A stretch of DNA of 64,000 nucleotides from Bathymodiolus brooksi (Eukaryota > Mollusca > Bivalvia > Mytilida > Modiolidae): NCBI GenBank assembly GCA_963680875.1, contig OY804579.1:56371718-56435717 (forward strand). Reading direction: 5' to 3'. A program made the position numbers and the translations under genes. The notes below the pieces were generated by a model, which worked only from the letters and a program-made list of their open reading frames with translations, was not told the DNA's origin and searched no databases. Below are positions 3,061 through 58,549 of the stretch, piece by piece. Positions within the stretch are counted from its first letter, which is position 1. Each line of letters begins with the position of its first letter.

Positions 3061-3223
3061 CCAAAATAATGCGTCTACAGAGTCAGAAAGTGATAAATGT
3101 AGCAGCTGGGTCACAACATAGTTTGGCTTTAACTGAGGCTGGAGAAGTCTTTAGTTGGGGAGACAATAGTTATGGACAGCTAGGAAGAGGACAGTTGGAT
3201 GAAAGTCAGACTAAACAACCTAA
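3061..3223 (+). CDS. HERC4: HERC3/4-like exon 1 of window: RCC1 blade
   Basis: 163-nt exon after acceptor TTCTTTTTAG and before donor GTATGC; it enters at codon position 2 and leaves after position 2. It contains the RCC1 signature [11 protein letters not shown] followed by [17 protein letters not shown], the usual strand and WG...GQLG pattern of a blade. It aligns with the second/third repeat of vertebrate HERC4, so the exon(s) encoding the start of the protein lie upstream of the window. Nothing coding was seen in 1-3060. Confidence 0.92.
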
Positions 3224-3246
3224 GTATGCATTAGTATTTTGAGCAT

Positions 3247-3318
3247 AGCTGATGAAGGTTATTCCAGAAACGTGTCATGTGCACTAAATTGATATCTACA
3301 TTGTTATACACAAGATCA
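3247..3318 (+). repeat. Interspersed repeat E, copy 1
   Basis: CTGATGAAGGTTATTCCAGA and GTGCACTAAATTGATATCTA; matches 58299-58370. Lies 24 bp after the exon 1 donor. Confidence 0.6.
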
Positions 3319-3529
3319 GTTATTTACTGGAAAAAATAAAGAAATGTATGGAGTAGTTAATTTCAGAGATGACTGATACAGTTGGAAGAACAGCAGTTAT
3401 GAAGAAGGTCAAGACATTCAAAACTGACATTTTGGTTTTATCAGAAATGTTATAATGTGTTTGATGTCACACTGACTGATAAATGTCAGTAACATGTTCA
3501 CTCTGTTGATACTGAAAATACTCCTCAGT

Positions 3530-4442
3530 GAGATCTAAGGAAAATGTATACTTGTCAATCTCCAATTATCTCCCTTGTTTATAATTTGGTGAGATCTAAG
3601 GAAAATGTATGCTTGTCTATCTCCAATTATCTCCCTTGTTTATAATTTGGTGAGATCTAAGGAAAATGTATACTTGTCAATCTCCAATTACCTCCCTTGT
3701 TTATAATTTGGTGAGATCTAAGGAAAATGTTTGCTTGTCTATCTCCAATTATCTCCCTTGTTTATGATTTGGTGAGATCTAAGGAAAATGTATGCTTTTC
3801 TATCTCCAATTATCTCCCTTGTTTATAATTTGGTGAGATCTAAGGAAAATGTATACTTGTCAATCTCCAATTATCTCCCTTGTTTATAATTTGGTGAGAT
3901 CTAAGGGAAATGTATACTTTTCAATCTCCAATTATCTCCCTTGTTTATAATTTGGTGAGATCTAAGGAAAATGTATACTTGTCAATCTCTAATTATCTCC
4001 CTTGTTTATAATTTGGTGAGATCTAAGGAAAATGTATACTTGTCAATCTCCAATTATCTTCCTTGTGTATAATTTGGTGAGATCTAAGGAAAATGTATGC
4101 TTGTCAATCTCCAATTATCCCCCTTGTTTATAATTTGGTGAGATCTAAGGAAAATGTATGCTTGTCTATCTCCAATTATCTCCCTTGTTTATAATTTGGT
4201 GAGATCTAAGGAAAATGTATACTTGTCAATCTCCAATTATCTCCCTTGTTTATAATTTGGTGAGATCTAAGGAAAATGTATGCTTGTCTATCTCCAATTA
4301 TCTCCCTTGTTTATAATTTGGTGAGATCTAAGGAAAATGTATGCTTGTCTATCTCCAATTATCTCCCTTGTTTATAATTTGGTGAGATCTAAGGAAAATG
4401 TATGCTTGTCTATCTCCAATTATTTCCCTTGTTTATAATTTG
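3530..4442 (+). repeat. 61-bp minisatellite
   Basis: About 15 units beginning GAGATCTAAGGAAAATGTAT and ending CTCCCTTGTTTATAATTTGG. Units alternate TATACTTGTCAAT and TATGCTTGTCTAT variants. Intron between exons 1 and 2. Confidence 0.93.
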
Positions 4443-4911
4443 CATATCTTTTCAATATTATTTTTTAAATTTTTTACAATTTATATAATTTATTGTAAAG
4501 TGATATAATGAATATTGCAATACTATTATTGATAACTTCTCTAATTAATGAAGTTTAAATTGACAGTTAACCAGGTGAGGGATTACATGCTCTGCGGAAC
4601 TTCTTGTTTTCATTTTTACTTTTTGACTTACAATTCAATAAATATAATCTTGATATAAAAATAATAAAATGCAAAACAAAACATATCACAGTCAAAACAT
4701 TTCCAAAACTCAATAGAAAAATCATAGAAAAAGGCAAAATCGATACCCCCTAATGCACAAATACATGATAGTAAAAAAAGCATTCAAAGTACTGTTGTTA
4801 TTTAAAATAGGTGCAATATGCATTCAAAATGGTAACTCTTCAAATAATTTATTATTTATTTGTTTATAAAAGGTTGAAATTTAATTTAAGAATATTTTTT
4901 TTCCCTTTTAG
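4443..4911. other. Unassigned intron sequence
   Basis: AT-rich intron between the 61-bp array and exon 2; no gene, RNA or repeat family recognised. Confidence 0.6.
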
Positions 4912-4988
4912 AGTAGTAAAGTCGTTAGTTATTCATCATATCATACAGATTTCCAGTGGCAATAATCACTCTTTAGCTTTAACTAATG
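4912..4988 (+). CDS. HERC4: HERC3/4-like exon 2: RCC1 blade
   Basis: 77-nt exon between acceptor TTCCCTTTTAG and donor GTTAGT. It enters at codon position 3, fitting exon 1, and ends after position 1. Encodes VVKSLVIHHIIQISSGNNHSLALTN and the first base of an Asp codon; ISSGNNHSLAL is an RCC1 signature. The spliced reading SLALTNDGMVFSWG across the next junction is typical of an RCC1 blade. Confidence 0.92.
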
Positions 4989-5510
4989 GTTAGTATACCT
5001 ATCCTATATAAGTTTTATTGTCAGCCATTTTATAGCCAAACTATGGACAGCTCATCACAAATACAAAGTAAGCTATATACAACCCCATTACATTATCACA
5101 CATTAATTTAAGGATACTGAATCTAAATAAAATCCAACTATAGAGAGTTTATCACTAATGCAAATAGTGGGTTTCAGTGAGATGGCTAAATGGTTTGTCA
5201 TTATGCAATAAGTGGATCGGTGCTGCAGTGTACCAACGGTGTGAATTCGAATCACGTTGATGGAAGAAAAGAACAAATTCGGTTAAAAATCTAATAGCTG
5301 AAGGATCTTAATAGTTCAGCATTATGGAAAGGGTGCTGCAGTGTACCAATGGAATATGTTCGAAATTTACTGAGGGAAAAACAGTGATATAATTGAGGAA
5401 TTCAAAAAGTTATTAAAACTTTTGATAATTTATTTTCCTGATATATCTCTTTACAATGGTAAATATATGATCTCGAAAGTTAAATATGTATCATAAGATT
5501 TGAATTTTAG

Positions 5511-5700
5511 ATGGCATGGTATTTTCATGGGGTGCTAATAATTATGGACAGTTAGGAGCTGGAAGTACCCAACAGCATATAGACACCCCTCAAGCATTAA
5601 TAAGTATAAGAGGAATACCTATAGCACAGATAATAACTGGAGGAAATCATAGCTTTATCTTGTCTATGTCAGGAGCCTTGTTTGGATGGGGCAGAAATAG
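5511..5700 (+). CDS. HERC4: HERC3/4-like exon 3: RCC1 blade
   Basis: 190-nt exon after TTGAATTTTAG and before GTAAGT. Encodes GMVFSWGANNYGQLGAG, a loop, then IPIAQIITGGNHSFILSMSG and ALFGWGRN. Human HERC4 has the closely similar [29 protein letters not shown] order. It ends after codon position 2; the next exon supplies the third base of a Ser codon. Confidence 0.94.
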
Positions 5701-5787
5701 GTAAGTAGTTGTGGAAACATAGAAGATAGTTAGTTATTATATAGATTGGTGGGAATTACGAGGATTTATCCATGAAATAAATTCCGG

Positions 5788-5805
5788 TATTTCACATGTG
5801 AAATA
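5788..5805. other. Perfect 18-bp palindrome
   Basis: TATTTCACATGTGAAATA, just after exon 3. The rest of 5701-6234 holds no gene or recognised repeat. Confidence 0.8.
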
Positions 5806-6234
5806 TCAGGTTTTTTTCCCGCCGGAACTACTTTTACACAACTGTATGGTGGTTACATCCCTTGTTGTGTTACGGTGAATACACATACGATTGTAAACTG
5901 AAAAAATTCCGCGAAATGTTATTGACGACTTTGGCACATAACCAACATGACGTCATATGAAGACTTCCAGTTTGAAACGTAAAGATTAGAAGTTATTTGG
6001 CTTCGTGTACCCTTCAATTTTGATCAAATTTAACTAAAATACGTTTTCAAGGTAAGCATTTTAATTATTTTTGTGCATTGTTGTAAATATGACATGTAGG
6101 ATTTCACATTTTCAAGATGGCAGATCCTTCCAGCTGAACCCCTTACTTAGTATCATTGCTCATAGATTTATACGCGTGGAATGAAATATACAAATAAAAA
6201 AAAGTGATATATAAGAAATTTTGAAAGTCTATAT

Positions 6235-6368
6235 AATAAACAGTATAACTAAATCATACATTTTGAATATCAAAATAAGACCACTCGTGACCGAATATGC
6301 ATTAATGATTAAACTTGTGGTCTTATTTTGATATTCAAAATCTACGATTAGTTATACTATATTTATTT
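6235..6368. repeat. Foldback palindrome
   Basis: Arms of about 50 bp: AAATCATACATTTTGAATAT and CAAAATAAGACCAC on the left, complementary to GTGGTCTTATTTTG and ATATTCAAAATCTACGATTA on the right, loop about 32 bp. A MITE-like hairpin. Confidence 0.88.
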
Positions 6369-6495
6369 ACCTGAAATATAAACTGAAATGATAAAGAAAT
6401 TGGAAAACCACTCATTAATTTTACAGTATTGTAGTTGAACAGTATTCTCTGAAAATTAATTAATTAAGGAATAATATATACAAAAAAATTACTAC

Positions 6496-6705
6496 TGTGA
6501 TCAGTGCCTATCACCACTAATGTTGTGAGTTCGAATCCCGCTCATGGTGAGGTGTACTCGATGCAACATTATGTAAAAAAAATTGTCAGTGACTTGCGGC
6601 AGGTATGTGGTTTTCTCTTGGTACTCCGGTTTCCTCCACCAATAAAACTGACCGCCATGATATAAATGAAATATTGTTGAAAGTGGCGTTAAACACCCTA
6701 ACCCT
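6496..6705 (+). mobile_element. SINE-A, 5'-truncated
   Basis: Begins GTGATCAGTGCCTATCACC, contains GAGTTCGAATCCCGCTCATG and ends GAAAGTGGCGTTAAACACC. Confidence 0.8.
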
Positions 6706-6784
6706 ATACTACTGTGGTTTCATTTCTTTTCGTTAATGTCAATTTTCGTGTATTGGCGTAAAGTGAAATGTTAATTGATATTTG

Positions 6785-6975
6785 AATTCATGGTTTTGAT
6801 ACTTACTAATGACTGTTTTGATACTTACTAATGACTGTTTTAATACTTACTAATGACTGTTTTGATACTTACTAATGACTGTTTTAATACTTACTAATGA
6901 CTGTTTTGATACTTACTAATGACTGTTTTGATACTTACTAATGACTTATTTTGATACTTACTAATGACTTATTTT
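6785..6975 (+). repeat. 23-bp minisatellite
   Basis: About eight units of TTTTGATACTTACTAATGAC plus TG[T/A]. Confidence 0.9.
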
Positions 6976-7094
6976 GGTTTCATATTGCTTTTCTATGTGC
7001 ACTCACTTACGTGATTTAATGATATCCACGAAAACCACGAAAAATTGATATTCAACAAATTAAAATGAAATCGCAGTATTCATGTTCAATACTT

Positions 7095-7262
7095 TTAAGT
7101 ACAGTCAAACCTGCCCATGTGGTCACCTCTAATAAGCAGTCAACTGTATTAAAAGGTCACATTTTTCTTGTCCTGTAATAGAAAATTTCATATGAATTGA
7201 ACCTCTTTTAAGAGGTCACCTGTCTTAAAAGACCACTCTTTGTCCAAAAGATGACCTCGTAA
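7095..7262 (+). repeat. TACAGTCAAACCTG-type interspersed repeat
   Basis: TACAGTCAAACCTGCCCATG, GTGGTCACCTCTAATAAGC and TTTAAGAGGTCACCTGTCTT, a decayed end of a DNA-transposon-like repeat common in invertebrates. A short related stretch is at 24522-24540. Confidence 0.5.
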
Positions 7263-7464
7263 TACTGGTATATGGGGGTGAATGAAAAATAGACTGCAAA
7301 AAATATCCTAGATACCTCAAGCTATAAAAATGAAATGGTAGTATTACAATGCCCTATTTTATGAGAATATGATTAATTAAATTGAAATGCATTCTTTTAA
7401 TAATCTCACAGTAATGCTTAATCATTGATTATTTACTGAACAAATTTCTAATGTTTATTTTCAG

Positions 7465-7496
7465 TTTTGGACAACTAGGTGTAAATGATGAGAATG
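7465..7496 (+). CDS. HERC4: HERC3/4-like microexon 4
   Basis: 32-nt microexon between acceptor TTTATTTTCAG and donor GTAAGA. Spliced to exon 3 it reads GWGRNSFGQLGVNDEN, matching the FGQLGLNDEN segment of HERC4. It enters at codon position 3 and leaves after position 1, which fits both neighbours. It is too short for ORF-based finding and is placed by homology and phase. Confidence 0.9.
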
Positions 7497-8282
7497 GTAA
7501 GATAAGTTGATACTGTTTCCATGGTATTCTAGACAAATGATTATCAACCTATAATATAAATCTGATAGTGTGATTCTTTATCTCTATGTACATCATGTAC
7601 AAATGAACACATTATTTTCTATTCAGATTATTACCTTTCAATGATATCAGATTCACTGCGATACTAGCAATTATGTCTATCTCGACCTTCAAAACTGTTT
7701 TTATCTGTAATTTCATAATGTGTTTTCATTATCAGAATCAGTTTGTTGATACTGACAATATCGCTCGGTGAGATCAAATAAAAAATGTCCAAATTATCGA
7801 TAACAAGAGATATGTTCATCAGTTCTTTCATTATATTTATACCCCTTGTGAATTAAGATAGAAACTTTTCACTAAGTGTACCAGTACTTCATGATTTACA
7901 GGTGGTACTTTTTCTTAAAATTTGAACATTTTTCATGAATATCTTATGCAACACTCTTGGAAATTAGTAGGTACCAATTGCCATTTTAAGTGGGTAAAAG
8001 TACCTGGTCCCGTCCTTACTGAAAGGCCTGCTGTCAATGGTTTTTGTATTTATGTGATATATATTAAAAGATCATTGATATTGATGATATATTATTTTAA
8101 TTACGTTATTGTTTAGATTCTCACAAATTAGAATATTTATTGTTCATTAAGTGTTAACTTCATTAATTACTTGTAATTACCCTGGACAGTAATTTTCACT
8201 TTGAAATAAAGCTTAAATTATATGGAAATTAATCAAGCATTTGACAAGATTTAATTAAAAACCAGCTTCAGCAGTGTAGGGG

Positions 8283-8455
8283 TTATGGTTATGGTGTTTA
8301 ACGCCACTTTCAACAATATTTTAGTTATATCTTGACAGTCAATTTTATTGGTTGAGAAAACCACGGACCTGCCGCAAGTCACTGACAAACTTTATCACAT
8401 AATTTTGTATCGAATACACCTCGCCATGAACGAGGTTCGAATTCACAATTATTAG
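8283..8455 (-). mobile_element. SINE-A fragment, reverse
   Basis: Reverse copy starting with the tail GTGTTTAACGCCACTTTCAA, lacking part of the core, and ending near the box-B-like GAGGTTCGAATTCACAA. Confidence 0.75.
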
Positions 8456-8491
8456 TTGTTACTTTGTAAACTGAGTATATTTATTTTACAG

Positions 8492-8583
8492 ATCGTAATC
8501 ATCCAACCCAGTGTAAATTATTAAGAAATCAGAAAATAGTATATTTAACATGTGGAGAAGACCATACCTGTACATTAACAAGT
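8492..8583 (+). CDS. HERC4: HERC3/4-like exon 5: RCC1 blade
   Basis: 92-nt exon after TTATTTTACAG and before GTAAGC. Encodes DRNHPTQCKLLRNQKIVYLT and then CGEDHTCTLTS; LTCGEDHTCTL is the RCC1 signature and QKIVY-CGEDHT-LT is shared with HERC3 and HERC4. It ends in phase 0. Confidence 0.93.
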
Positions 8584-8802
8584 GTAAGCTGTATCTAGAT
8601 AAAAATCATTTCATTAAGAAGGGCCAATAAAACTAGTTTTACGAAGCCACTTTTTATTGAAGTGCCTGTACCAAGCTAGGAAACTGAACGGTCATGTATT
8701 ATAAATATGTGTATAAGGATATCAATTTTGCCCCTTGCTATGATTTTTGTATTGGGATTTTGGAACTGTCCCGACAGTGTGGTATTTTTAAACAGTGATT
8801 GT

Positions 8803-8935
8803 CAACAATTCCACCAATATCAACAAAATAAACAATCGCCTCTCACCTCAATCATTGAAGATGACCTATGGCGTTAGAAATCAGATCCTGACTTGAGACA
8901 GGCACAAAAATGTGGTAGGATTAAACACTGCATGT
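8803..8935 (+). repeat. Interspersed repeat D, copy 1
   Basis: CAACAATTCCACCAATATCA, CCTCTCACCTCAATCATTGA, ATGGCGTTAGAAATC and GAGACAGGCACAAAAATGTG then GTAGGATTAAAC. The last part resembles a very common bivalve repeat. Recurs at 24022 and 34630. Confidence 0.65.
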
Positions 8936-9199
8936 AAAAGACTTACAGCAGCTCCTAATGTGCAACAAAAAGGGATATCCTCAGCATGATATCGTGTGCA
9001 GTCGTGTTATCAGTAAAGGGAAGATAAACATAAATTTTACTATAATAAGCCTTCCACTAAAAAACAAAAGCAGATATAGGGAAAAAAAAGAACAAGGTAA
9101 ATCAAATTAAAATAATTACAAAAATATATTATAATATTAAACAGGTGTTGAAGATTAAGTTATTTTATATGTCTTAAACTATGTGATTTAATTATGTAG

Positions 9200-9330
9200 G
9201 AGGGAGGTGTGTTTACATTTGGTAATGGTAGTTATGGACAGTTAGGACATGGTAATTCTAATAATGAAATTCTTCCACGACAAGTGATGGATTTGATGGG
9301 TTCTGTAGTTACACAGATAGCTTGTGGCAG
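9200..9330 (+). CDS. HERC4: HERC3/4-like exon 6: RCC1 blade
   Basis: 131-nt exon after AATTATGTAG and before GTAGGC. Encodes EGGVFTFGNGSYGQLGHGNS, then a loop and VMDLMGSVVTQIACGR, matching the GGVFTFG-GQLGH and LMGS-VT-IACGR landmarks of HERC3/4. It ends after codon position 2 inside the signature IACGRRHTLTY, completed by exon 7. Confidence 0.94.
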
Positions 9331-9389
9331 GTAGGCATACTCTTGTAGTCTTAGAAGTTGTTTATCAAAGGGTCTTTTATGACATACAA

Positions 9390-9404
9390 GGGGGGGGGGG
9401 GGGG
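9390..9404. repeat. Poly-G run of 15
   Basis: Fifteen consecutive G followed by TGCCAGAGGGCCTGG in the intron after exon 6; likely length-variable. Confidence 0.9.
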
Positions 9405-9527
9405 TGCCAGAGGGCCTGGACCCCCTTTTTTTACCTAAGTTATTGACTGTTAAAAACGTGTTTTAACAGAATATTTCCAATTTGACTACATTTTGTACCA
9501 CCTCAAATGAGGTACTACTCGATACCT

Positions 9528-9742
9528 TATAATCAATGCCTATCACCACTGATGTTGTGAGTTGGAATCTCGATCAGGGCGAGGTGTACAACATTATGTG
9601 ATAAATTTGTCAGTGACTTGCGACAGGTCAGTGGTTTTCTCCGGGTACTCCGGTTTCCTCCACCAATAAAACTGACTGCCACGATATAACTGAAATATTG
9701 TTGAAAGTGGCATTTAGCACCATAAACCAACCAAAACCAACC
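9528..9742 (+). mobile_element. SINE-A, 5'-truncated
   Basis: Carries TCAATGCCTATCACCACTG, GACTTGCGACAGGTCAGTGG and the tail TTGTTGAAAGTGGCATTTAG. Confidence 0.8.
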
Positions 9743-9966
9743 TTAAGTTATCTATTTGACTACATTTTGTACCACCTCAAATGAGGTACTACTCGATACC
9801 TTATGTTATAAGGTTTGTCTGAGACTAACAAATGGTCAGTGGATTACCACGTATAATTCAGTTTCCACCACCAAAAGAACTGACCACACAATATATAAAT
9901 ACTGTTAAAAATGACATTTAATACTTAGAATGCTCATCCTTTAAGTTAATCTTTCATAATAATATA

Positions 9967-11049
9967 CTGTGTGGGAAACAATTTTTTGGCGAGTGGACTG
10001 AAACAAGTACTAGCCAAAATGAAATAGAGCTCGCCATGTTTGGCGAGTGACATTTTTTTTAAGCTCGCCAACAAATACCAAATACCGTATTTTACGGACA
10101 ATAGGTCGATATTTTTTTTCTCCTCAACACGCTGGCTTCGATCTATCGTCCACAACGACCTATATACAAGGATGAAGTTAAAAAAAAACTCAAAACAATC
10201 TCGATAAAAATGACGATTTTGTTCACAGTATACCTTTATTTTGCTGTAGGTTTTTTTTTTGAATAAGAAGACTGAAATCATCGATGTTCTTGGTGTTAAT
10301 TTTTTTTTAAATAAAGCAATAAAAGTATACAGGGGGTGCAATTCCGGGAAATAAATGTTCAACATCCGAAAAAAAATCAATATTCAATGATTGAAGTGTT
10401 AGTGAAAATCAGTTCAATACTGTATTGTATATAAAATATATACTATAAAAAATGTATGTTGTTGAAAAAAAATCACAGGGTGGATCGTTTTACAATATAG
10501 AATTATTATCACAAAATATCTAAATATAGCTATTACATAGCTTTTCCATCAAACACGAGCATGCGCACAAGGTTGTAGTAAACAATGGCGGTTGCATTAC
10601 ATCTCACAATAAATGTGGAGAACAAGCTTTTTATACAAAATATACTGGAAAATAATTATCGATTTCGTTAAACTAGAATGTTCTACACTTGAATTGGTCA
10701 ATTAGGAACAAATAAAATAATCACCATGAGATAATCAACACAGGTGAACTTCAGTCGTCACTTTAATATCCTGATCAGCTGATTGAAAATTTACTGGACC
10801 GAGACGATCACATAATTTGTGTACTATTAATAAAATGTTGGATAAATGGATAAATGACACAGTTAACAGATAATTTAACTGTTTGGGAGCTATGATATTT
10901 TAAAGCTGTAAACCAGTTATCGTGGCAAGCGTTTTCAAGTTCCTACTCGCCTTACAACTGTTACTCGCCAGACTGGCAAGTATAAAGTGGATCTTACTCG
11001 CCACCCGAAATTTCCACTCGCCATTGGCGAGTGGTCGTTTCCCACACTG
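9967..11049. mobile_element. hAT-like TIR element, degenerate
   Basis: Ends C[T/A]GTGTGGGAAAC at 9967 and its complement GTTTCCCACACTG ending at 11049, with subterminal GGCGAGTGG motifs in inverted orientation. CAGTG-type ends are typical of hAT elements. The target duplication is not clear. The interior shares a ~200-bp stretch (AATAGGTCGATATT, AACACGCTGG, AAAAATGACGATTTTGTT) with 43331-43510. No transposase frame recognised. Confidence 0.6.
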
Positions 11050-11201
11050 ATGTATATAGAATGATAGGAGACTGCTAGTACAGATTTATAGCTCTTTGTA
11101 AAATAAGATATGATTTTTCTCATATACATATACATGTACTAGAAATAGATTGAATCAAAAGGGTACATAAATAGTCCTTTGTTGTCATTTTAATTTTTTG
11201 T

Positions 11202-11378
11202 GGGGGCCGTCATGGTCGTGATCATTATCGTATGGTTGTTTACATCAACCTGTGCAATCAGTGCCTATCACCACTATTGTTGTGAGTTTGAACCCCACTC
11301 AGGTGATGTGTACTTGATACAACTTTATGTGATAAAGTTTGTCAGTGACTTGCGGCAGGTCGGTGGTGCACTCTAGGT
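11202..11378 (+). mobile_element. SINE-A head and partial core
   Basis: 5' complete (GGGGGCCGTCATGGTCGTGA), box-B-like GAGTTTGAACCCCACTC, stops in the core at GTCGGTGGTGCACTC. Confidence 0.78.
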
Positions 11379-11593
11379 TTTTTGTGTGGATTGGAAATAC
11401 ATGTTGGGTGACTTCACAAGACATTGTTTTACAATTGGAATATGAATAAAAAGTTTTTTTACTAAAAAAAAATCCAACTTGCATACATAACAAGGTTAGT
11501 GATACAGACTCAGGTAAACCTCTCAGTTTAATTTTAGGAAAGATATGAAAAATGATGGTAAACACATTAAAATGGTGTGTAAATATATTTCAG

Positions 11594-11840
11594 GCGACAT
11601 ACATTGACATATATACCAAACACTGGCAGGCTTTATTCCTTTGGTGCAGGGTCTTGTGGACAGCTTGGTCTTGGCACCACTGATAAAAAGACCAACCCAA
11701 ATCTTGTGCCTTGTCCATTTTTGTCATCCAGTAGTAACCGATCATCTGTGATGGAACATGATGGAGCTACTCATATTGTTAAAAGGATCTACTCAGGTGG
11801 AAACCAATGTGTGGTCTTAGCAAATAAAATCAGTTCTCAG
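11594..11840 (+). CDS. HERC4: HERC3/4-like exon 7: last RCC1 blade in window
   Basis: 247-nt exon after ATATATTTCAG and before GTAATA, ending in phase 0. Encodes RRHTLTYIPNTGRLYSFGAG and then SCGQLGLGTTDKK, a Ser-rich loop, and HIVKRIYSGGNQCVVLANKI. It closes the RCC1 propeller. Its last 43 nt and the donor are reiterated in a 53-bp array just downstream. Reading past the true donor meets a TAG stop at 11871, so only the first donor keeps the frame. Confidence 0.94.
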
Positions 11841-19300: not shown

Positions 19301-20528
19301 GCTTCTTCTCTGAAACCACTTGGACAATTGAAACCAAACTGCCCAGGAATGATCATTGGAAGGTCCTCTGTTGTTTATGCCGATTGGAAATCCAAGATGG
19401 CTGCCACCACAGGTCATAGTATCATAGATGCCAACCAATGCGATTTTTCCGTAATTGTTACGAATTTCGGGCCAAAATTACTGTGTTACGGTCAACAGTC
19501 TACTTGTTACGGATTTCCGTTTATTGCCGGCCCGAAACCGTTCCCCATTTAAATATCATTGTGATCATTTAGACGCTTCATTGTATGTTAAAATCGCGTA
19601 ATGATAAGCGCTTGAGGGATTTCGATTATTTAATCCTTTAGGGATTCTCGGGACTATCTATAGCAGAAAACGATCTATCCATTTCTTGTTTGATCCCGAG
19701 TAGTTAATGAACACAGCACGTTTTTGTCAATTTCGCAATGTCTGAGGGAACAAGTGAAGCTTCTGCAGCGAAGAAAAGATAATTGGGACAACGATTTCGT
19801 CCCGAATATTCTTCTCTTGCCTTATGAAATCGATACGGGAACATTATGCCTATTGCAAATATTGCAAGCAAGACTTGTCCATTCAGCACGGTGGTCGGGA
19901 TGAACACACATATACAACAAAACAGTTCAAAAGTGCCAAGTCAACAACATATCAGGCACTCCAGAATTAGACATTAATTATTCCATGGGAGGGTGAGGGA
20001 GGGCCACTTCAGGAAATTTTCATTTCTATTGACAGTAAGTTGAAACATAGAATACATTTGTAAGTGAACATACATGTATTAAAACTTAACTTTTTATTTC
20101 TTTTTGTTGCCCATCAATTTTACATCTAGTTGTCACAAATAAAGGAAATCATTTGCTCATCACTTTGTGCCTAGTCTGTAGTACGATTATGGTAAAATTT
20201 TATGAAAAATTATGATTACTGAAAAAAATCACAAATTACTGACATCTCAACATTTTGTTACTGATTGCACCAAAAAGGGGTTGGCATCTATGTAGTATTA
20301 ACACAGGACCATATGGGGAAAATACAGAAATATATTCTTCTCTGAAGCTATTGCACTGATTGAACCTAAACTGTGCATCAATCATTGGAAGGTCCTTTAC
20401 AAACTTTGTGTTTTTTTATGTTGATCGTAATTCCAAGATGACTACCACTGCAGGACATAGTTTTTACATAGGACCAATTGGTTCTTTTTATAACCAGGTG
20501 AACGGTACAGGCTCTTGAGAGCCTCTGG
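16395..20528 (+). mobile_element. Helentron/pearl-like element copy B with nested insertion
   Basis: Complete copy starting AGTTCACCTGGACC, then GCCATCACTTGGCGTCC and a short GTC/TGTC-rich stretch, then about eight ~332-bp tandem units, interrupted at 19423-20292 by a TIR element, and ending with the GGCTCTTGAGAGCC hairpin and CTGG at 20525-20528. Neighbouring units differ by only a few substitutions, implying recent unit turnover. No protein is encoded. Confidence 0.75.
19423..20292. mobile_element. 870-bp TIR element nested in copy B
   Basis: Perfect 14-bp terminal inverted repeats CATAGATGCCAACC / GGTTGGCATCTATG, flanked by the direct repeat TAGTAT at 19417-19422 and 20293-20298. The intact host sequence in copies A and C (CATAGTATTAACAC) shows the empty site with a single TAGTAT, which proves a 6-bp target-site duplication. 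No transposase is visible. Superfamily not assigned. Confidence 0.85.
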
Positions 20529-21004: not shown

Positions 21005-22725
21005 TGTATTTAAAGCATCATGATATTAATCATGGTTTAATGAGGTTAATCGCGGTTTAATGATATTAATCATGGTTTAATGATATGAATCATGGTTTAA
21101 TGATATGAATCATGGTTTAATGATGTGAATCATGGTTTAATGATATTAATCGTGGTTTAATGATATGAATCATGCTTTAATGATATTAATCATGGTTTAA
21201 TGATATGAATCATGCTTTAATGATGTTAATCATGGTTTAATGATATTAATCATGGTGTAATGCTGTTAATCATGGTTTAATGATATGAATCATGGTTTAA
21301 TTATATTAATCATGGTTTAATGATATGAATCATGGTTAAATGATATTAATCATGGTTTAATGATATAAATCATGGTTTAATGATGTGAATCATGGTTTAA
21401 TGATATCATGGTTTAATGATATGAATCATGGTTTAATGATATCATGGTTTAATGATATGAATCATGGTTTAATGATATGAATCATGGTTTAATGATATGA
21501 ATCATGGTTTGATGATAAGAATAATGGTTTAATGATTTTAATCATGGTTTAATGATATTAATCATTGTTTAATGACATTAATCATGGTTTAATAATATGA
21601 ATCATGGTTTAATGATATGAATCATGGTTTAATGATATGAATCATGGTTTAATGATGTGAATCATGGTTTAATGATATGAATCATGGTTTAATGGTAAGA
21701 ATAATGGTTTAATGATATTAATCATGGTTTAATGATATGAATCATGGTTTAATGATATGAATCATGGTTTAATGATGTGAATCATGGTTTAATGATATTA
21801 ATCATGGTTTAATGATATGAATCATGGTTTAATGATATGAATCATGGTTTATTAATGTTAATCATGGTTTAATGATATTAGTCATGGTTTAATGATGTTA
21901 ATCATGGTTTGATTATATTAATCATGGTGGAATGATGTGAATCATGGTTTAATTAAATTAATCATGGTTTAATGATATTAATCATGGTTTAATGATATGA
22001 ATCATGGTTTAATGATATTAATCATGGTTTAATGATATGAATCATGGTTTAATTATATTAATCATGGTTAATGATATCATGGTTTAATGATATGAATCAT
22101 GGTTTAATTATATTAATCGTGGTTTAATGATATGAATCATGGTTTAATGATGTTAATCATGATTTAATGATATTAATCATGGTTTAATGATGTTAATCAT
22201 GGTTTAATTATATTAATCATGGTGTAATGATGTTAATCATGGTTTAATTATATGAATCATGGTTTAATGATATTAATCATGGTTTAATGATATGAATCAT
22301 GGTTTAATGATATTAATCATGGTTTAATTATATTAATCATGGTTAATGATATCATGGTTTAATGATATGAATCATGGTTTAATTATATTAATCACGGTAT
22401 AATGATGAATCATGGTTTAATGATGTGAATCATGGTTTAATGATATTAATCATGGTTTAATGATATGAATCATGGTTTAATGATGTTAATCATGATTTAA
22501 TGATATTAATCATGGTTTAATGATGTTAATCGTGGTTTAATTTTATTAATCATGGTGTAATGATGTTAATCATGGTTTAATGATATGAATCATGGTTTAA
22601 TGATATGAATCATGGTTTAATGATGTGAATCATGGTTTAATGATATTAATCATGGTTTAATGATATGAATCATGGTTTAATGATATTAATCATGGTTTAA
22701 TGATATTAATCATGGTTTACAAGAA
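21005..22725 (+). repeat. 20-bp satellite-like array, about 86 units
   Basis: Unit TGATAT[T/G]AATCATGGTTTAA with scattered variants and a few 14-15 bp deleted units. Each unit has the short inverted repeat ATGAT/ATCAT. It ends 57 bp before exon 9. Confidence 0.95.
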
Positions 22726-25945: not shown

Positions 25946-28900
25946 AGTTCACCTGGACCAAAGGTCCATGTGAACTATTGCCATCACTTGGCGTCCGTCG
26001 TCTGTCGTCTGTCGTCTGTCGTCTGTAAACTTTTCACATTTCAAGCTTCTTCTCCGAAACCACTTGGCCGATTGGAACCGAACTTAGCAGGAATGTTCCT
26101 TGGATGGTCCTCTACAAAGTTACTGTTTTTCGTTCCAGTCGGATATTCAATATGGCTGCCAGGGCCAATAATATGCTCTGATTGGCCGAAATTTCAAAGA
26201 TCTTCTTCTCCGAAACTAATGAACTGACTGAACCCAAACTGTAAAGGAATGATCATTGGAATGTCCTTTACCAAGTTACTGTTTTTTATGCCGATCGGAA
26301 ATCCAAGATGGCCGCCATCGCAGGACATAGATTAACATTGGACCCTATGGGAAAATGTTCAAATGCCTTCTTCTCAGAAACTACAAATATTATTAAAGCC
26401 AAACTGTACATGAATGTTCATTGGATGGTCCTCTACAATCTTAAGGTTTTTTGTTCCGATATGAAATTCAAAATGGCGGCTACGGCAGGACTTAGTTTAA
26501 CATTGGACCCTATGGGAAAAATGTTTCAAAATGCTTCTTCTCTGAAACCACTAGGACAGTTGAAACCAAACTGCCCAGGAATGATCATTGGAAGGTCCTC
26601 TACAAATTATGTGTTTTTTATGCCGGTCGGAAATCCAAGATGGCCGCCACCGCAGGACATAGATTAACATTGGACCCTATGGGAAAATATTCAAATGCCT
26701 TCTACTCAGAAACTACAAATATGATTAAAGCCAAACTGTACATGAATGTTCATTAGATGGTCCTCTACAAACTTTACGTTTTTTGTTCCGGTATGAAATT
26801 CAAAATGGCGGCTACGGCAGGACTTAGTTTAACATTGAACCCTATGGGAAAAATGTTTCAAAACGCTTCTTCTCTGAAACCACTTGGATAATTTAAACCA
26901 AACTGCCTAGGAATGATCATTGGAAGGTCCTCTAGAAATTTTATGTTTTTTATGCCGATCGGAAATCCAAGATGGCCGCCACCGCAATACATAGATTAAC
27001 ATTGGACCCTATGGGAAAATGTTCAAATGCCTTCTTCTCAGAAACTACAAATATGATTAAAGCCAAACTGTACATGAATGTTCATTGGATGGTCCTCTAC
27101 AATCTTAAGGTTTTTTGTTCCGATATGAAATTCAAAATGGCGGCTACGGCAGGACTTAGTTTAACATTGGACCCTATGGGAAAAATGTTTCAAAATGCTT
27201 CTTCTCTGAAACCACTTGGACAGTTGAAACCAAACTGCCCAGGAATGATCATTGGAAGGTCCTCTACAAATTTAAGGTTTTTTATGCCGGTCGGAAATCC
27301 AAGATGGCCGCCACTGCAGGACATAGATTAACATTGGACCCTATGGGAAAATATTCAAATGCCTTCTACTCAGAAACTACAAATATGATTAAAGCCAAAC
27401 TGTACATGAATGTTCATTAGATGGTCCTCTACAAACTTTACGTTTTTTGTTCCGGTATGAAATTCAAAATGGCGGCTACGGCAGGACTTAGTTTAACATT
27501 GGACCCTATGGGGAAAATGTTTCAAAACGCTTCTTCTCTGAAACCACTTGGATAATTGAAACCAAACTGCCTAGGAATGATCATTGGAAGGTCCTCTACA
27601 AATTTTATGTTTTTTATGCCAATCGGAAATCCAAGATGGCCACCACCGCAATACATAGATTAACATTGGACCCTATGGGAAAATGTTCAAATGCCTTCTT
27701 CTCAGAAACTACAAATATGATTAAAGCCAAACTGTACATGAATGTTCATTGGATGGTCCTCTACAATCTTAAGGTTTTTTGTTCCGATATGAAATTCAAA
27801 ATGGCGGCTACGGCAGGACTTAGTTTAACATTGGACCCTATGGGAAAAATGTTTCAAAATGCTTCTTCTCTGAAACCACTTGGACAGTTGAAACCAAACT
27901 GCCCAGGAATGATCATTGGAAGGTCCTCTACAAATTTTCTGTTTTTTATGCCAGTCGGAAATCCAAGATGGCCGCCACCGCAGGACAGATTAACATTGGA
28001 CCCTATGGGAAAATATTCAAATGCCTTCTACTCAGAAACTACAAATATGATTAAAGCCAAACTGTACATGAATGTTCATTGGATGGTCCTCTACAAACTT
28101 TACGTTTTTTGTTCTGGTATGAAATTCAAAATGGCGGCTACGGCAGGACTTAGTTTAACATTGGACCCTATGGGAAAAATGTTTCAAAACGCTTCTTCTC
28201 TGAAACCACTTGGATAATTGAAACCAAACTGCCTAGGAATGATCATTGAAAGGTCCTCTACAAATTTTATGTTTTTTATGCCAATCGGAAATCCAAGATG
28301 GCCACCACCGCAATACATAGATTAACATTGGACCCTATGGGAAAATGTTCAAATGCCTTCTACTCAGAAACTACAAATATGATTAAAGCCAAACTGTACA
28401 TGAATGTTCATTAGATGGTCCTCTACAAACTTTACGTTTTTTGTTCCGGTATGAAATTCAAAATGGCGGCTACGGCAGGACTTAGTTTAACATTGGACCC
28501 TATGGGAAAAATGTTTCAAAATGCTTCTTCTCTGAAACCACTTGGACAGTTGAAACTAAACTGCCCAGGAATGATCATTGGAAGGTCCTCTACAAATTTT
28601 CTGTTTTTTATGCCGGTCAGAAATCCAAGATGGCCGCCACCGCAGGACATAGATTAACATTGGACCCTATGGGAAAATATTCAAATGCCTTCTACTCAGA
28701 AACTACAAATATGATTAAAGCCAAACTGTACATGAATGTTCATTAGATGGTCCTCTACAAACTTTACGTTTTTTGTTCTGGTATGAAATTCAAAATGGCG
28801 GCTACGGCAGGACTTAGTTTAACATTGGACCCTATGGGAAAAATGTTTCAAAACGCTTCTTCTCTGAAACCACTTGGATAATTGAAACCAAACTGCCCAG

Positions 28901-29528
28901 GAATGATCATTGGAAGGTCCTCTACAAGGTGTGTGTTTTTTATGCCGATCGGAAATCCAAGATGGCCACCACCGCAGGACATAGATTAACATTGGACCCT
29001 ATGGGAAAATGTTCAAATGCCTTCTTCTCAGAAACTACAAATATGATTAAAGCCAAACTGTGCATGAATGTTCATTGAATGGTCCTCTACAAAATATACG
29101 TTTTTTATTCTGATATGAAATTCAAAATGGCGGCTACGGCAGGACTTAGTTTAACATTGGACCCTATGGGAAAAATGTTTCAAAATGCTTCTTCTCTGAA
29201 ACCACTTGGACAGTTGAAACCAAACTGCCCAGGAATGATCATTGGAAGGTCCTGTTTTTTATGCCGATCGGAAATCCAAGATGGCTGCCACCACAGGTCA
29301 TAGTATTAACACAGAACCATATGGGGAAAATACAGAAATATATTCTTCTCTGAAGCTATTGCACTGATTGAACCTAAACTGTGCATCAATCATTGGAAGG
29401 TCCTTTAGAAACTTTGTGTTTTTTATGTTGATCGTAATTCCAAGATGACGCAGGATATAGTTTTTACATAGGACCAATTGTTTTTTTTTATTACCAGGTG
29501 AACGATACAGGCTCTTGAGAGCCTCTGG
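25946..29528 (+). mobile_element. Helentron/pearl-like element copy C
   Basis: Complete 3583-bp copy from AGTTCACCTGG to CTGG with the same 5' end, internal ~332-bp units and 3' hairpin as copy B. From 26308 to 28300 units recur with a 664-bp super-period (two 332-bp units per step, distinguishable by TTCTAC versus TTCTTC and by GTTCATTAG versus GTTCATTGG), a higher-order repeat. Inserted just after a short SINE-C tail remnant (GAGTGAGTGAGTG at about 25901). Confidence 0.75.
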
Positions 29529-42654: not shown

Positions 42655-42744
42655 CCTCCAATGCATTTCTGTGATTATCCGTTTGTGTTTGATGGTCCTG
42701 CAAAGTCTGTGCTACTCCAAACAGATGCATTTTTGCAAATGAAG
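42655..42744 (+). CDS. HERC4: HERC3/4-like exon 17
   Basis: 90-nt phase 0-0 exon after TTACAATTTTAG and before GTAAGT. Encodes PPMHFCDYPFVFDGPAKSVL and LQTDAFLQMK; compare YPFVFDAQAKTTLLQTDAVLQMQ in HERC4. It leads into the HECT domain. Confidence 0.96.
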
Positions 42745-43612: not shown

Positions 43613-43780
43613 ACGGCACTAGAGGAAGCTCAAAGACACAATATCCAGAGTTTATTTATACAAAACGTAGACCCAGTGAGTCCTCTGTTGGTGTTACATG
43701 TTTCTAGGGACAACATAGTACATGATACAATACGTCAGATTGCACAAAAAGGCAGTGGAGATCTGAAAAAACCTCTCAAG
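43613..43780 (+). CDS. HERC4: HERC3/4-like exon 18: start of HECT N-lobe
   Basis: 168-nt phase 0-0 exon after ATTTTTGGCAG and before GTAATA. Encodes TALEEAQRHNIQSLFIQNVD, then PLLVLHVSRDNIVHDTIRQI and GDLKKPLK. The LxVxRxNIVxD and KKPLK landmarks mark the beginning of the HECT fold in HERC3/4. It is followed by the twin exons 19a and 19b. Confidence 0.96.
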
Positions 43781-47344: not shown

Positions 47345-47635
47345 TTCACTCAAAAAATGGATGTGTTCTGGAAGATCCCCTAAAAGCCTCTACTTGAGTG
47401 TATAACATGGATGTGTTTCTGGAACACCCTCTGGGAGCTTCTTATTGAGAGTGTAACATTGGTGTTTTCTGGAACACCCTCTGTGAGCCTCTTATTGAGA
47501 GTGTAACATGTGTGTTTTCTGGAACACCCTTTGTGAGCCTCTTATTGAAAGTGTAACATGGGTGATTTCTGGAACATCCCCTATGAACCTCTTATTGAGA
47601 GTGTAACATGGGTGTTTTCTGGAACACCCTTATCA
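47345..47635 (+). repeat. ~50-bp minisatellite upstream of exon 19a
   Basis: About six units with GGTGTTTTCTGGAACACCCT and CTTATTGAGAGTGTAACATG. GTGTTTTCTGGAACAC is partly self-complementary. Ends about 110 bp before the twin HECT exons. Confidence 0.88.
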
Positions 47636-47743: not shown

Positions 47744-47791
47744 GTAGAATTCATTGCAGAAGAGGCTATAGATGCAGGAGGTCTCACCAAG
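47744..47791 (+). CDS. HERC4: HECT exon 19a (alternative copy, HERC3-like motif)
   Basis: 48-nt phase 0-0 exon after GCTACTTTCAG and before GTTTGT. Encodes VEFIAEEAIDAGGLTK, the conserved HECT strand-loop that continues as EFFLLLLREVL in exon 20. Its DAGG(V/L)TK ending resembles HERC3. It lies 72 nt upstream of the homologous exon 19b. Both copies are intact and have usable splice sites, so they are likely mutually exclusive or alternative exons (inference). Confidence 0.85.
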
Positions 47792-47863
47792 GTTTGTAAA
47801 ATATTCACTTTAACACACTGCGTTCATTCACCATTACTTATTTCTGTAGCCATTTCATTTCAG

Positions 47864-47911
47864 GTGGTGTTTTTAGGAGAGGAAGCAATAGATGAAGGTG
47901 GTTTGAGAAAG
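47864..47911 (+). CDS. HERC4: HECT exon 19b (alternative copy, HERC4-like motif)
   Basis: 48-nt phase 0-0 exon after TTTCATTTCAG and before GTATCA. Encodes VVFLGEEAIDEGGLRK; its FxGE and GG(V/L)RK features resemble HERC4 (VIFVGEDAVDAGGVRK) more than 19a does. The two copies are identical at 9 of 16 residues. The 72-nt intron between them has a length divisible by three and no in-frame stop, so even its retention would keep the frame. Confidence 0.87.
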
Positions 47912-50040: not shown

Positions 50041-53000
50041 CAGGGGCTGCTCTGGCTCCCAAAAAATAGGAGCCAGAAAAATCGCCAGGTGCCAGTTTTG
50101 AAAGTCAGGAGCCAGTTTAGGATCCAGCTAAATTTTTTACAAGGAGCCAATTTTTTCGAACCGAAACTGGATGATTGCATGTACCAATTTCATGTATAAA
50201 TGGTCCGGATTTGTTTGTACAAATGTTAATGTCTGTATTGTACTTCTGTTTTTCATTTCGATTTCATCATCAAAAACAAAAAGATTTATATAATTTATTA
50301 CAATATACTGTATTTTACGGATTATCAGGGATTCAGCCAGGATTTTGAGACCATTAGTCACTTTTGCGGAACAGATTTTTAATGTCTAATCTTAATCTTA
50401 TAATCAGTTATTTTGCCTTATTAGTTAGTAATGGAGATTGAAAAACTATGAAAACCTCATAGGATGAGAACGTACTCTGCAAATTAGAAACCAACTGATA
50501 AAACATAACATTGCCATGATTTTGATCTAATACCACACAAATTGTAATACCCCCATTTTTTTTTAAATATTACTGTGCTTTGATCTAATACCACACAAAT
50601 TGTAATAACCCCCTCCCCCACCCTTTTTAGTTCACCTGAACCAAAGGTCCAGGTGAACTATTGCCATCACTTGGCGTCCATCGTCTGTCGTCCGTCGTCT
50701 GTTGTCTGTCATCTGTAAACTTTTCACATTTCAAGCTTCTTCTCCGAAACCACTGGGCCAATTGGAACCAAACTTAGCAGGAATGTTCCTTGGATGGTCC
50801 TCTACAAATTTACTGTTTTTCGTTCCAGTTGGATATTCAACATGGCTGCCAGGGCCAATAATATATTCTGATTGGCTGAAATTTCAAAGATCTTCTTCTC
50901 TGAAACTAATGAACTGACTGAACCGAAACTGTAAAGGAATGATCATTTGAATGTCCTTTACCAAGTTACTATTTTTTATGCCGATCGGAAATCCAAGATG
51001 GCCGCCACCGCAGGACATAGATTAACATTGGACCCTATGGAAAAATGTTCAAATGCCTTCTTCTCAGAAACTACAAATATGATTAAAGCCAAACTGTACA
51101 TGAATGTTCATTGGATGGTCCTCTACAAACTTTACGTTTTTTGTTCCGATATGAAATTCAAAATGGCGGCTACGGCAGGACTTAGTTTAACATTGGACCC
51201 TATGGGAAAAATGTTTCAAAACGCTTCTTCTCTGAAACCACTAGGACAGTTGAAACCAAACTGCCCATGAATGATCATTGGAAGGTCCTCTACAAAATTT
51301 TTGTTTTTTATGCCGATCGGAAATCCAAGATGGCCGCCACCGCAATACATAGATTAACATTGGACCCTATGGGAAAATGTTCAAATGCCTTCTTCTTAAA
51401 AACTACAAATATGATTAAAGCCAAACTGTACATGAATGTTCATTGAATGGTCCTCTACAAACTTTGCGTTTTTTGTTCCGATATGAAATTCAAAATGGCA
51501 GCTACGGCAGGACTTAGTTTAACATTGGACCCTATGGGAAAAATGTTTCAAAACGCTTCTTCTCTGAAACCACTAGGACAATTGAAACCAAACTGCCCAG
51601 GAATGATCATTGGAAGGTCCTCTACAAAGTTTCTGTTTTTTATGCCGATCGGAAATCCAAGGTGGCTGCCACCACAGGTCATAGTATTAACACAGGACCA
51701 TATGGGGAAATACAGAAATATATTCTTTTCTGGAGCTATTGCACTGATTGAACCTAAACTGTGCATCAATCATTGGAAGGTCCTTTACAAACTTTGTGTT
51801 TTTTATGTTGATCGTAATTCCAAGATGACTACCACTGCAGGACATAGTTTTTACATAGGACCAATTGGTTCTTGTTATAACCAAGTGAACGATACAGGCT
51901 CTTGAGAGCCTCTGGTTGAAATGTTACTGTGCTTTGGTCTAATACCACAACAATTGTAATAACTCGTACGTATTTGGTATTTGTGTAGTCTTCAGCAGAA
52001 AAAAATGTCTCTGCCAATGGTCCAACTTCTAGATACTTTGTACAAAATGTAGGTAATGAATAGAACAAACGTCAAAAACTGAAGCAAGTTATAAAATGAA
52101 TAATTATTTCTCAGATCTCATAATCAAATTGCAACAATTGGAATAAAAATACTGACTGGTTAATTTTTTTAATTGCAGACACGTGTCGGTTTGTAAATAG
52201 TTCTATAAATAGAACACAATTGTTACCCGGATGCTGATCGATAAAAACTTATGCGTCCTCGATCTCGTGCAGTGCATTTCAATGGCTAACCTTCGCATAT
52301 AAAAAATGACCATATTAGATATGAGAACTAAGATTACATTTCACAGAAATGAAAATAAGTATATCAAAAGTTCGTTTGGTTAAAAGTATCGGTGGATTAA
52401 TTGCTAACTCCTGTTGATCGTGCCATTTTTATTTTTTAAGTTTCTTTATAAACCAAAGTTTATGACTTTTCGAGAAAGTCATTTTCAAAATACCTAATGA
52501 ATACGATAGACAAAAGACTTCCGAACTCCCGTATAAACATGATATCGATATTTTCATAAATGAAACGTGCAAAAATAGTTCGTTATGGTGGACATTGTGA
52601 CAAATCGTGCAACGAATGACGATTACTAAAATATGTCCACTTAAAATACATACTGTGACATTTTGAGAACTATAAAAAAAAATCATTATCTTTGATTGAA
52701 TTCTTTGTCGGGATCAATATCTTTAACCAGGTAAATCAAGCCAGGTGTAATCAAAGATTACGCAATCAAAACAAAAATTCTATAATCCGTTGATTGGCTT
52801 GTACATGTAATAGAATTGTCATTGTAATGACTAATTAGTTTTAATCAACAAATGAAGAAGCAGAATGGATTGTTACAAACATTTTTCTACGATTTTTTGA
52901 AAATTCAAGTGACGAATTGGGTACGGGAAATACTGTTACTCGTCACTTTCGAAAATCAATCGTCAATAATTTATTGATTTTTGTTACGGTACACAGTGAT

Positions 53001-53148: not shown

Positions 53149-53244
53149 GAATTTTTCCTGCTTCTGCTAAGAGAAGTATTAGATCCCAAATATGGCATGT
53201 TTAAACACTATGAAGAATCGAGATTAGACTGGTTCAATGCCAAT
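53149..53244 (+). CDS. HERC4: HERC3/4-like exon 20: HECT N-lobe
   Basis: 96-nt phase 0-0 exon after TTATTTTTTAG and before GTATGT. Encodes EFFLLLLREVLDPKYGMFKH and YEESRLDWFNAN; HERC4 reads EFFLLIMRELLDPKYGMFRYYEDSRLIWF here. The hAT-like element of the preceding intron ends only 27 bp upstream. Confidence 0.97.
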
Positions 53245-54733: not shown

Positions 54734-54852
54734 TCATTTGAAGAGCCTCTGATGTTCTATCTGATTGGCTGTTTATGTGGACTAGCCATTTATAATTCTA
54801 CAATTATCGCATTGAACTTCCCTCTGGCACTATTCAAGAAATTATTAAAAAG
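54734..54852 (+). CDS. HERC4: HERC3/4-like exon 21: HECT N-lobe
   Basis: 119-nt exon after CATTCTGTTTCAG and before GTATGT. Encodes SFEEPLMFYLIGCLCGLAIY then NSTIIALNFPLALFKKLLK; the IGxxCGLAIYN-T-ID/V-LxFPLALxKKLL motif is a HECT landmark. It ends after codon position 2. The 34-bp array starts about 110 bp downstream. Confidence 0.97.
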
Positions 54853-54969: not shown

Positions 54970-56640
54970 ATGCTGTGTGTACAACAGATGTGATGTCTTA
55001 GCTTTACTGTGTGTACAACAGATGTGATGTCTTAGCTTTACTGTGTGTACAAAAGATGTGATGTCTTAGCTTTACTGTGTGTACAAAAGATGTGATGTCT
55101 TAGCTTTACTGTGTGTACAAAAGATGTGATGCCTTAGCTTTACTGTGTGTACAACAGATGTGATGTCTTAGCTTTACTGTGTGTACAAAAGATGTGATGT
55201 CTTAGCTTTACTGTGTGTACAAAAGATGTGATGTCTTAGCTTTACTGTGTGTACAAAAGATGTGATGTCTTAGCTTTACTGTGTGTACAAAAGATGTGAT
55301 GTTTTAGCTTTACTGTGTGTACAAAAGATGTGATGCCTTAGCTTTACTGTGTGTACAAAAGATGTGATGTCTTAGCTTTACTGTGTGTACAAAAGATGTG
55401 ATGTCTTAGCTTTACTGTGTGTACAAAAGATGTGATGTCTTAGCTTTACTGTGTGTACAACAGATGTGATGTCTTAGCTTTACTGTGTGTACAAAAGATG
55501 TGATGTCTTAGCTTTACTGTGTGTACAAAAGATGTGATGTCTTAGCTTTACTGTGTGTACAAAAGATGTGATGTCTTAGCTTTACTGTGTGTACAAAAGA
55601 TGTGATGTTTTAGCTTTACTGTGTGTACAAAAGATGTGATGCCTTAGCTTTACTGTGTGTACAAAAGATGTGATGTCTTAGCTTTACTGTGTGTACAAAA
55701 GATGTGATGTCTTAGCTTTACTGTGTGTACAAAAGATGTGATGTCTTAGCTTTACTGTGTGTACAAAAGATGTGATGTCTTAGCTTTACTGTGTGTACAA
55801 AAGATGTGATGTCTTAGCTTTACTGTGTGTACAAAAGATGTGATGTCTTAGCTTTACTGTGTGTACAAAAGATGTGATGTCTTAGCTTTACTGTGTGTAC
55901 AAAAGATGTGATGTCTTAGCTTTACTGTGTGTACAAAAGATGTGATGTCTTAGCTTTACTGTGTGTACAAAAGATGTGATGTCTTAGCTTTACTGTGTGT
56001 ACAAAAGATGTGATGTCTTAGCTTTACTGTGTGTACAAAAGATGTGATGTCTTAGCTTTACTGTGTGTACAAAAGATGTGATGTCTTAGCTTTACTGTGT
56101 GTACAAAAGATGTGATGTCTTAGCTTTACTGTGTGTACAAAAGATGTGATGTCTTAGCTTTACTGTGTGTACAAAAAGATGTGATGTCTTAGCTTTACTA
56201 TGTGTACAAAAGATGTGATGTCTTAGCTTTACTGTGTGTACAAAAGAAGTGATGTCTTAGCTTTACTGTGTGTACAAAAGATGTGATGTCTTAGCTTTAC
56301 TGTGTGTACAAAAGATGTGATGTCTTAGCTTTACTGTGTGTACAACAGATGTGATGTCTTAGCTTTACTGTGTGTACAAAAGATGTGATGTCTTAGCTTT
56401 ACTGTGTGTACAAAAGATGTGATGTCTTAGCTTTACTGTGTGTACAAAAGATGTGATGTCTTAGCTTTACTGTATGTACAAAAGATGTGATGTCTTAGTT
56501 TTACTGTATGTACAAAAGATGTGATGTCTTAGTTTTACTGTATGTACAAAAGATGTGATGTCTTAGCTTTACTGTGTGTACAAAAGATGTGATCTCTTAG
56601 CTTTACTGTGTGTACAAAAGATGTGATGTCTTAGCTTTAC
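54970..56640 (+). repeat. 34-bp satellite-like array, about 49 units
   Basis: Unit TGTGATGTCTTAGCTTTACT and GTGTGTACAAAAGA, highly homogeneous in the centre with more variants at both ends. Intron between exons 21 and 22. Confidence 0.95.
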
Positions 56641-58469: not shown

Positions 58470-58549
58470 GTTTGTAGTTGTTGACACATGTTGAAACAAA
58501 ATATATTCTTTTGCTCTCGGAATCCAGTAAAATATTCATCTTTTCAGTT

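Follow-up and report, generated by a model that had tools for sequence, protein, structure and literature searches.

Tandem exons used in a mutually exclusive way to exchange a segment of a functional site are familiar from PKM, JNK (exons 6a and 6b), and alpha-tropomyosin. HECT ubiquitin ligases must choose an acceptor lysine, and a suspected determinant of this choice is the ligation-organizing loop. This loop has been described as a conserved active-site element of HECT ligases (PMC12440805, PMC13196369), and Glu491 and Asp495 of Rsp5 are reported to be essential for ubiquitin ligation (PMC3738095). In UBR5, the name ligation-organizing loop is given to D2283-E2287, with Arg54 of the acceptor ubiquitin projecting toward E2287 and a charge swap restoring activity (PMC10830417). 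Small HERC ligase genes number one in Drosophila and comprise HERC3-6 in humans (PMC4488328). At the locus described here, two adjacent exons, 19a and 19b, are found in a HERC4-type gene of the bivalve Bathymodiolus brooksi, and they are likely to be an old tandem duplicate within the mollusc HERC4 gene, used in a mutually exclusive manner and swapping the ligation-organizing loop.

The window, that is, the whole stretch of B. brooksi DNA analysed (64,000 nt, contig OY804579.1), holds most of the HERC4-type gene on the plus strand, with RCC1-repeat exons, linker exons, and HECT N-lobe exons extending to about 58472. The exons of the RCC1-like domain (RLD) span 3063..11807, approximate limits given by the outer borders of tblastn matches, and the joined exons match the Pfam families RCC1 (241 bits), WD40_RLD (261.7 bits), and HECT (68.2 bits, profile positions 2-111 of 306), showing RCC1 repeats upstream of a HECT domain as in small HERC ligases. 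Exons are numbered from the 18-20 of the first-pass annotation of this DNA, the 5' end of the gene not having been found in the window. Exon 17 (42655..42744, plus strand, PPMHFCDYPFVFDGPAKSVLLQTDAFLQMK) is a tblastn match with AG/GT borders and an open frame, exon 18 (43613..43780, plus strand) ends in phase 0, exon 20 (53149..53244, plus strand) encodes EFFLLLLREVLDPKYGMFKHYEESRLDWFNAN, the first Glu of which aligns to Rsp5 Glu502, and exon 21 (54734..54852, plus strand) belongs to the HECT N-lobe. Probes for the C-termini of human HERC3 and HERC4 revealed no convincing exon for the C-lobe in the window, where HECT matches stop near 58472, and the catalytic Cys of the gene thus probably lies beyond it. 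Among the best 120 of 1100 protein matches, the closest is P0001 (84% over the HECT N-lobe region), which has exactly the exon 19 segment of Mytilus coruscus P0225, followed in the list by bivalves such as Saccostrea, Pinctada, and Mizuhopecten. By these matches alone, the source would likely be a bivalve close to mussels.

The window also contains tandem repeats. Four blocks of what is apparently one kind of ~332-bp repeat (1-1933, 16644-19369, 26192-29253, and 50892-51705) show 90-95% matches within blocks and contain long incidental open frames. A 20-bp repeat (21020-22719, 86 copies, 87% matches) lies in an intron-sized gap of the HERC4-type gene, a 34-bp repeat (54973-56640, 49 copies, 98% matches) lies in the HECT intron downstream of exon 21, and a 50-bp repeat (47357-47630, 5.5 copies, 85% matches) ends 113 nt upstream of 19a, the recognition of which it could affect.

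The first-pass annotation had proposed twin 48-nt exons of phase 0-0, 72 nt apart and both fitting the same slot, and direct reading of the borders confirms this at the nucleotide level and in translation. Exon 18 ends at 43780 with DLKKPLK followed by GT, and exon 20 begins at 53149 with AG followed by EFFLLLL; between them stand exon 19a (47744..47791, plus strand, VEFIAEEAIDAGGLTK), with the a-type loop D-A-G-G, an intron of 72 nt (47792..47863, plus strand), and exon 19b (47864..47911, plus strand, VVFLGEEAIDEGGLRK), with the b-type loop D-E-G-G. Being homologous, equal in length and phase, and both bordered by AG and GT, the two have the properties of tandem exons. They share 32 of 48 nucleotides and 11 of 16 residues, differing at residue positions 2, 4, 5, 11, and 15, and no third copy was found on either strand of the window, where the next-best 16-residue match scores 24 against 53 for the pair. 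A chance origin of this likeness is very unlikely, since the next-best match among the 40 open AG-48-GT frames of the plus strand (the pair included) scores 3, and since, of 20,000 neutral simulations that each placed 16 substitutions, 0.04% ended with an identity of 11/16 or more and a frame free of stops. Third codon positions hold 10 of the 16 nucleotide differences (hypergeometric P=0.0036), with dS saturated and dN about 0.22. Similarity between the introns flanking the two exons was not detectable in three comparisons (P 0.10, 0.28, and 0.61), by a test of modest power in which the exons themselves reach only P 0.003. This argues against a recent duplication and also against an assembly artefact; an artefact is unlikely because copies produced by collapse or duplication in the assembly would be almost the same in sequence.

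Judged from alignment, 19a and 19b encode the HECT ligation-organizing loop together with the end of the strand before it and the start of the helix after it. A structural model of the a-type scallop protein P0006, built on an alignment of 49 sequences (mean pLDDT 87.5), has a strand at residues 735-739, a loop at 740-748, and a helix from 749, the exon segment being residues 737-752 and the block 741-750 having a mean pLDDT of 64. In ungapped matches to Rsp5, exon position 10 falls on residue 118 of chain 4lcd_A (432 aa) and residue 115 of chain 3olm_A (429 aa). Position 10 would then be Asp495, provided that the chains end at residue 809. The Rsp5 sequence gives the same numbering, in agreement with the residues named in the Rsp5 study (PMC3738095). 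By this mapping, Glu491 lies at position 6, Tyr496 at position 11, and Glu502 at the start of exon 20. The loop reads E-E-A-I-D-A-G-G in 19a and E-E-A-I-D-E-G-G in 19b, so both exons have the acids at the places of Glu491 and Asp495, with exon 20 supplying the Glu at 502; likewise, position 6 is E and position 10 is D in 220 of 220 segments of 16 residues among the matches listed. A corresponding match to the UBR5 loop was sought with two chimeric queries, which matched the MLLE domain only, and E2287 could equal either position 10 or position 11.

The distribution of the two types was read from three protein searches, one (the best 120 of 1100 matches) with 19b as query and the other two with 19a, which together gave 226 proteins, the segment being readable in 225 (P0218 excluded) and 16 residues long in 220; type frequencies are biased by the use of the best 120 of 1100 and by the mixed queries. 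Position 11 sorts the molluscs, A or G marking the a-type and E the b-type, with A in 19a and E in 19b. Among the matches listed, the 23 named mollusc records divide into 5 with the a-type only (Mizuhopecten, Sinanodonta, Dreissena, Haliotis, and, with G, Gigantopelta), 17 with the b-type only (Saccostrea, Pinctada, Ylistrum, Mercenaria, Solemya, Ruditapes, Mactra, Biomphalaria, Pomacea, Littorina, Lymnaea, Babylonia, Lottia, Octopus, Argonauta, Bulinus, and Mytilus), and 1 with both. The scallops are split, Mizuhopecten P0006 being a-type and Ylistrum P0007 b-type. The record with both is Potamilus P0216, in which KKPLK, IVFEGDEQTIDAGGVRK, VTFIGEEAQDEGGVRK, and EFF follow one another, a before b as in the window. 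The P0216 gene model is truncated, and a later part of its HECT domain is missing as well. Its a-type copy has a one-residue insertion in common with those of Sinanodonta P0008 and Dreissena P0198, which occurs in none of the b-type segments read and suggests a single inherited a copy; in the unionids, the first acid of this longer loop is Asp instead of Glu.

Among the matches listed, 26 of 220 segments have E at position 11, 17 of them from named molluscs and 9 placed by their nearest named protein; no named non-mollusc has it. Those 9 are the records nearest to a mollusc among 45 without a species name, and all 9 are b-type and none a-type, while the other 36, nearest to named non-molluscs, lack E at this position. 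A search for short proteins with 19a returned eight, seven of them with A at position 11 and nearest to named non-molluscs and one a b-type Mytilus protein. The pair looks old in bivalves and perhaps in molluscs, and the simplest reading of the sequences would be that the exon duplicated once, in early bivalves or still earlier, and that 19a retains the form common among animals while 19b has that of molluscs. One HERC4-like protein, P0124, has a loop segment six residues longer (VNFVGEEAIDGGGVTDTGGVTK), its nearest named relatives among the matches listed not being molluscs.

The first-pass proposal of a mutually exclusive pair that yields two variants of the HECT N-lobe has indirect support. 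The labels HERC3-like for 19a and HERC4-like for 19b, which the first-pass annotation attached to the pair mainly on the strength of T or R at position 15, fare less well. Some similarity scores do lean that way, 19b scoring 65 against HERC4 and 54 and 57 against two HERC3 sequences, and 19a sharing 11-12 residues with HERC3 and 10 with HERC4, but the BLOSUM scores of 19a (54 and 57 against HERC3, 54 against HERC4) show no real difference. Position 15 itself is R in 132, T in 63, K in 24, and Q in 1 of the 220 segments among the matches listed, and it does not follow type: b-type segments carry any of the four, with T in Mytilus and Octopus and K in Ylistrum, and the a-type of Mizuhopecten has R. 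Mytilus coruscus P0225 and P0001 have T in a 19b-type segment, where the 19b of the window has R. Since T and R vary freely, the division of vertebrate genes into HERC3 and HERC4 is not reflected in the pair, and that correspondence was dropped on the residue counts, though the 19b scores favour HERC4.

As to splicing, inclusion of 19a, of 19b, of both, or of neither leaves exons 18-20 in frame and free of stops, so that frame prevents neither skipping nor doubling and spacing or regulation must do so. A yUnAy scan of the 72-nt intron finds six branch-point-like sites, five of them at 16, 22, 35, 39, and 49 nt from the donor of 19a and the last just 6 nt short of the acceptor. The spacing limit that blocks splicing is known from vertebrates, and a distance of 49 nt between donor and branch point is near it and not clearly below. 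By analogy, a spacing block of the alpha-tropomyosin kind between 19a and 19b is plausible but borderline. Splicing to a second AG, 14 nt upstream of the 19b acceptor, would cause a frameshift. Donor scores, by a weight matrix, are 5.4 for 19a and 4.0 for 19b out of 12.7, and the weakness of the 19a donor is no special mark, since that of exon 22 in the same gene also scores 5.4. Exons 19a (from 47744) and 19b (from 47864) both begin with GT, and their junction with exon 18, which ends in AAG, rebuilds a weak donor (4.88 and 4.83 by the same matrix), which raises the possibility of recursive splicing at the 18/19 junction. In humans, a skip of HERC4 exon 23 has been described in breast cancer (PMC7536242), and the printed primer seems to lie in the coding stretch downstream of the loop segment; the event is an exon skip with no alternative pair, and it was set aside as a counterpart. 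PMC6224609 bears on HERC4 only through its reference list.

If the pair is used as proposed, each mRNA would take one loop, 19a or 19b. Both forms would keep the catalytic Glu and Asp and differ in the residue after the Asp, which corresponds to Rsp5 Tyr496, and at positions 2, 4, 5, and 15. Substrate docking by the RLD would be the same in both, as would the E2 site and the catalytic Cys, and the change would fall on the surface where the acceptor lysine or the acceptor ubiquitin is received. Exclusivity would come largely from the 72-nt intron, with its branch points near the 19a donor. Skipping both exons would lose the essential Glu and Asp, and including both would double the loop. The gene would then yield two ligases that have the RLD and the E2 site in common and differ in the loop beside the thioester. 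The exclusivity, its regulation, and the altered ligation are what we infer, and the effect of A versus E at position 11 may be gauged by extrapolation from other HECT ligases.

Three other accounts bear on this reading. The a and b types might be separate substitutions between A and E in single-copy exons, or separate late duplications, which would make the pair local to its lineage; this concerns the age of the pair and is compatible with mutually exclusive use. Among the matches listed, 22 of the 23 named mollusc records do show one type only, and a segment of 16 residues is too short for a tree. Yet Potamilus has the same order and the same residues at position 11, the loop insertion is common to the a-type copies of two unionids and Dreissena and absent from every b-type segment read, and the flanking introns of the window pair have no detectable similarity, and we regard a local origin as possible, if unlikely. 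It is improbable, too, that 19b is the working exon and 19a a relic or a poison-like exon, spliced in rarely if at all. Such a role would suit the b-only records (9 of 9 mollusc-like and 17 of 23 named, among the matches listed) and the Ala at position 5 of 19a, found in none of the 220 proteins listed. Against it, 19a has kept its frame, both splice sites, and, like 19b, all 8 residues that are conserved in at least 90% of those 220 proteins, despite saturated synonymous change; six named mollusc records among the matches listed have an a-type segment, that of Haliotis in a record labelled 'isoform X2', and position 5 varies elsewhere too (D in 17, N in 10, and E in 2 of the 220). Because all nine mollusc-like records listed are b-type, the main form is probably b, with 19a perhaps a minor one; the clustering of these records at 90% identity can hide isoforms.

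That both exons are joined as a 32-residue segment, or serve as optional cassettes, so that the loop of the HECT domain is present twice, is highly unlikely. Joining is in frame, and the Potamilus gene model, read literally, contains both; but this truncated model is the 1 of 225 readable proteins among the matches listed that does, the 72-nt intron has no branch-point-like site more than 49 nt from its donor except the one 6 nt from the acceptor, and doubling would displace the active-site loop. The reading of 19a and 19b as an old pair in mutually exclusive use leads to a wider and more tentative one, namely that molluscs may switch HECT chemistry by splicing, with the same substrates and E2 but a different preference for acceptor lysine or chain type, kept since early bivalve or mollusc evolution.

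If this is true, splicing rewrites the active site of a ubiquitin ligase instead of its targeting part, which is, to our knowledge, unusual. With five residues in and around the loop exchanged and all else constant, the two natural forms are a ready-made test of loop function. Tandem alternative exons are a known kind, and their placement on the ligation-organizing loop appears to be new, no such pair in any HECT ligase having been found in the titles and abstract beginnings of the open-licence papers that were listed.

Compared with small HERC ligases, the gene has the same RCC1-like domain and HECT domain, and the nearest named proteins listed for its HECT region include HERC4 records; it differs in that A and E types of position 11 stand in one gene, E being absent from named non-mollusc records among the matches listed. 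With PKM, JNK exons 6a/6b, and alpha-tropomyosin it shares homologous neighbouring exons of equal length and phase with a very short intron between them. Like the loops of Rsp5 (491-495), UBR5 (D2283-E2287), and TRIP12, the encoded segment would sit at the same place between strand and helix, both exons keeping the Glu and Asp essential in Rsp5, and E6AP has D-E-G-G at the loop, as does 19b. In contrast to these ligases, the loop here lies on its own duplicated 48-nt exon.
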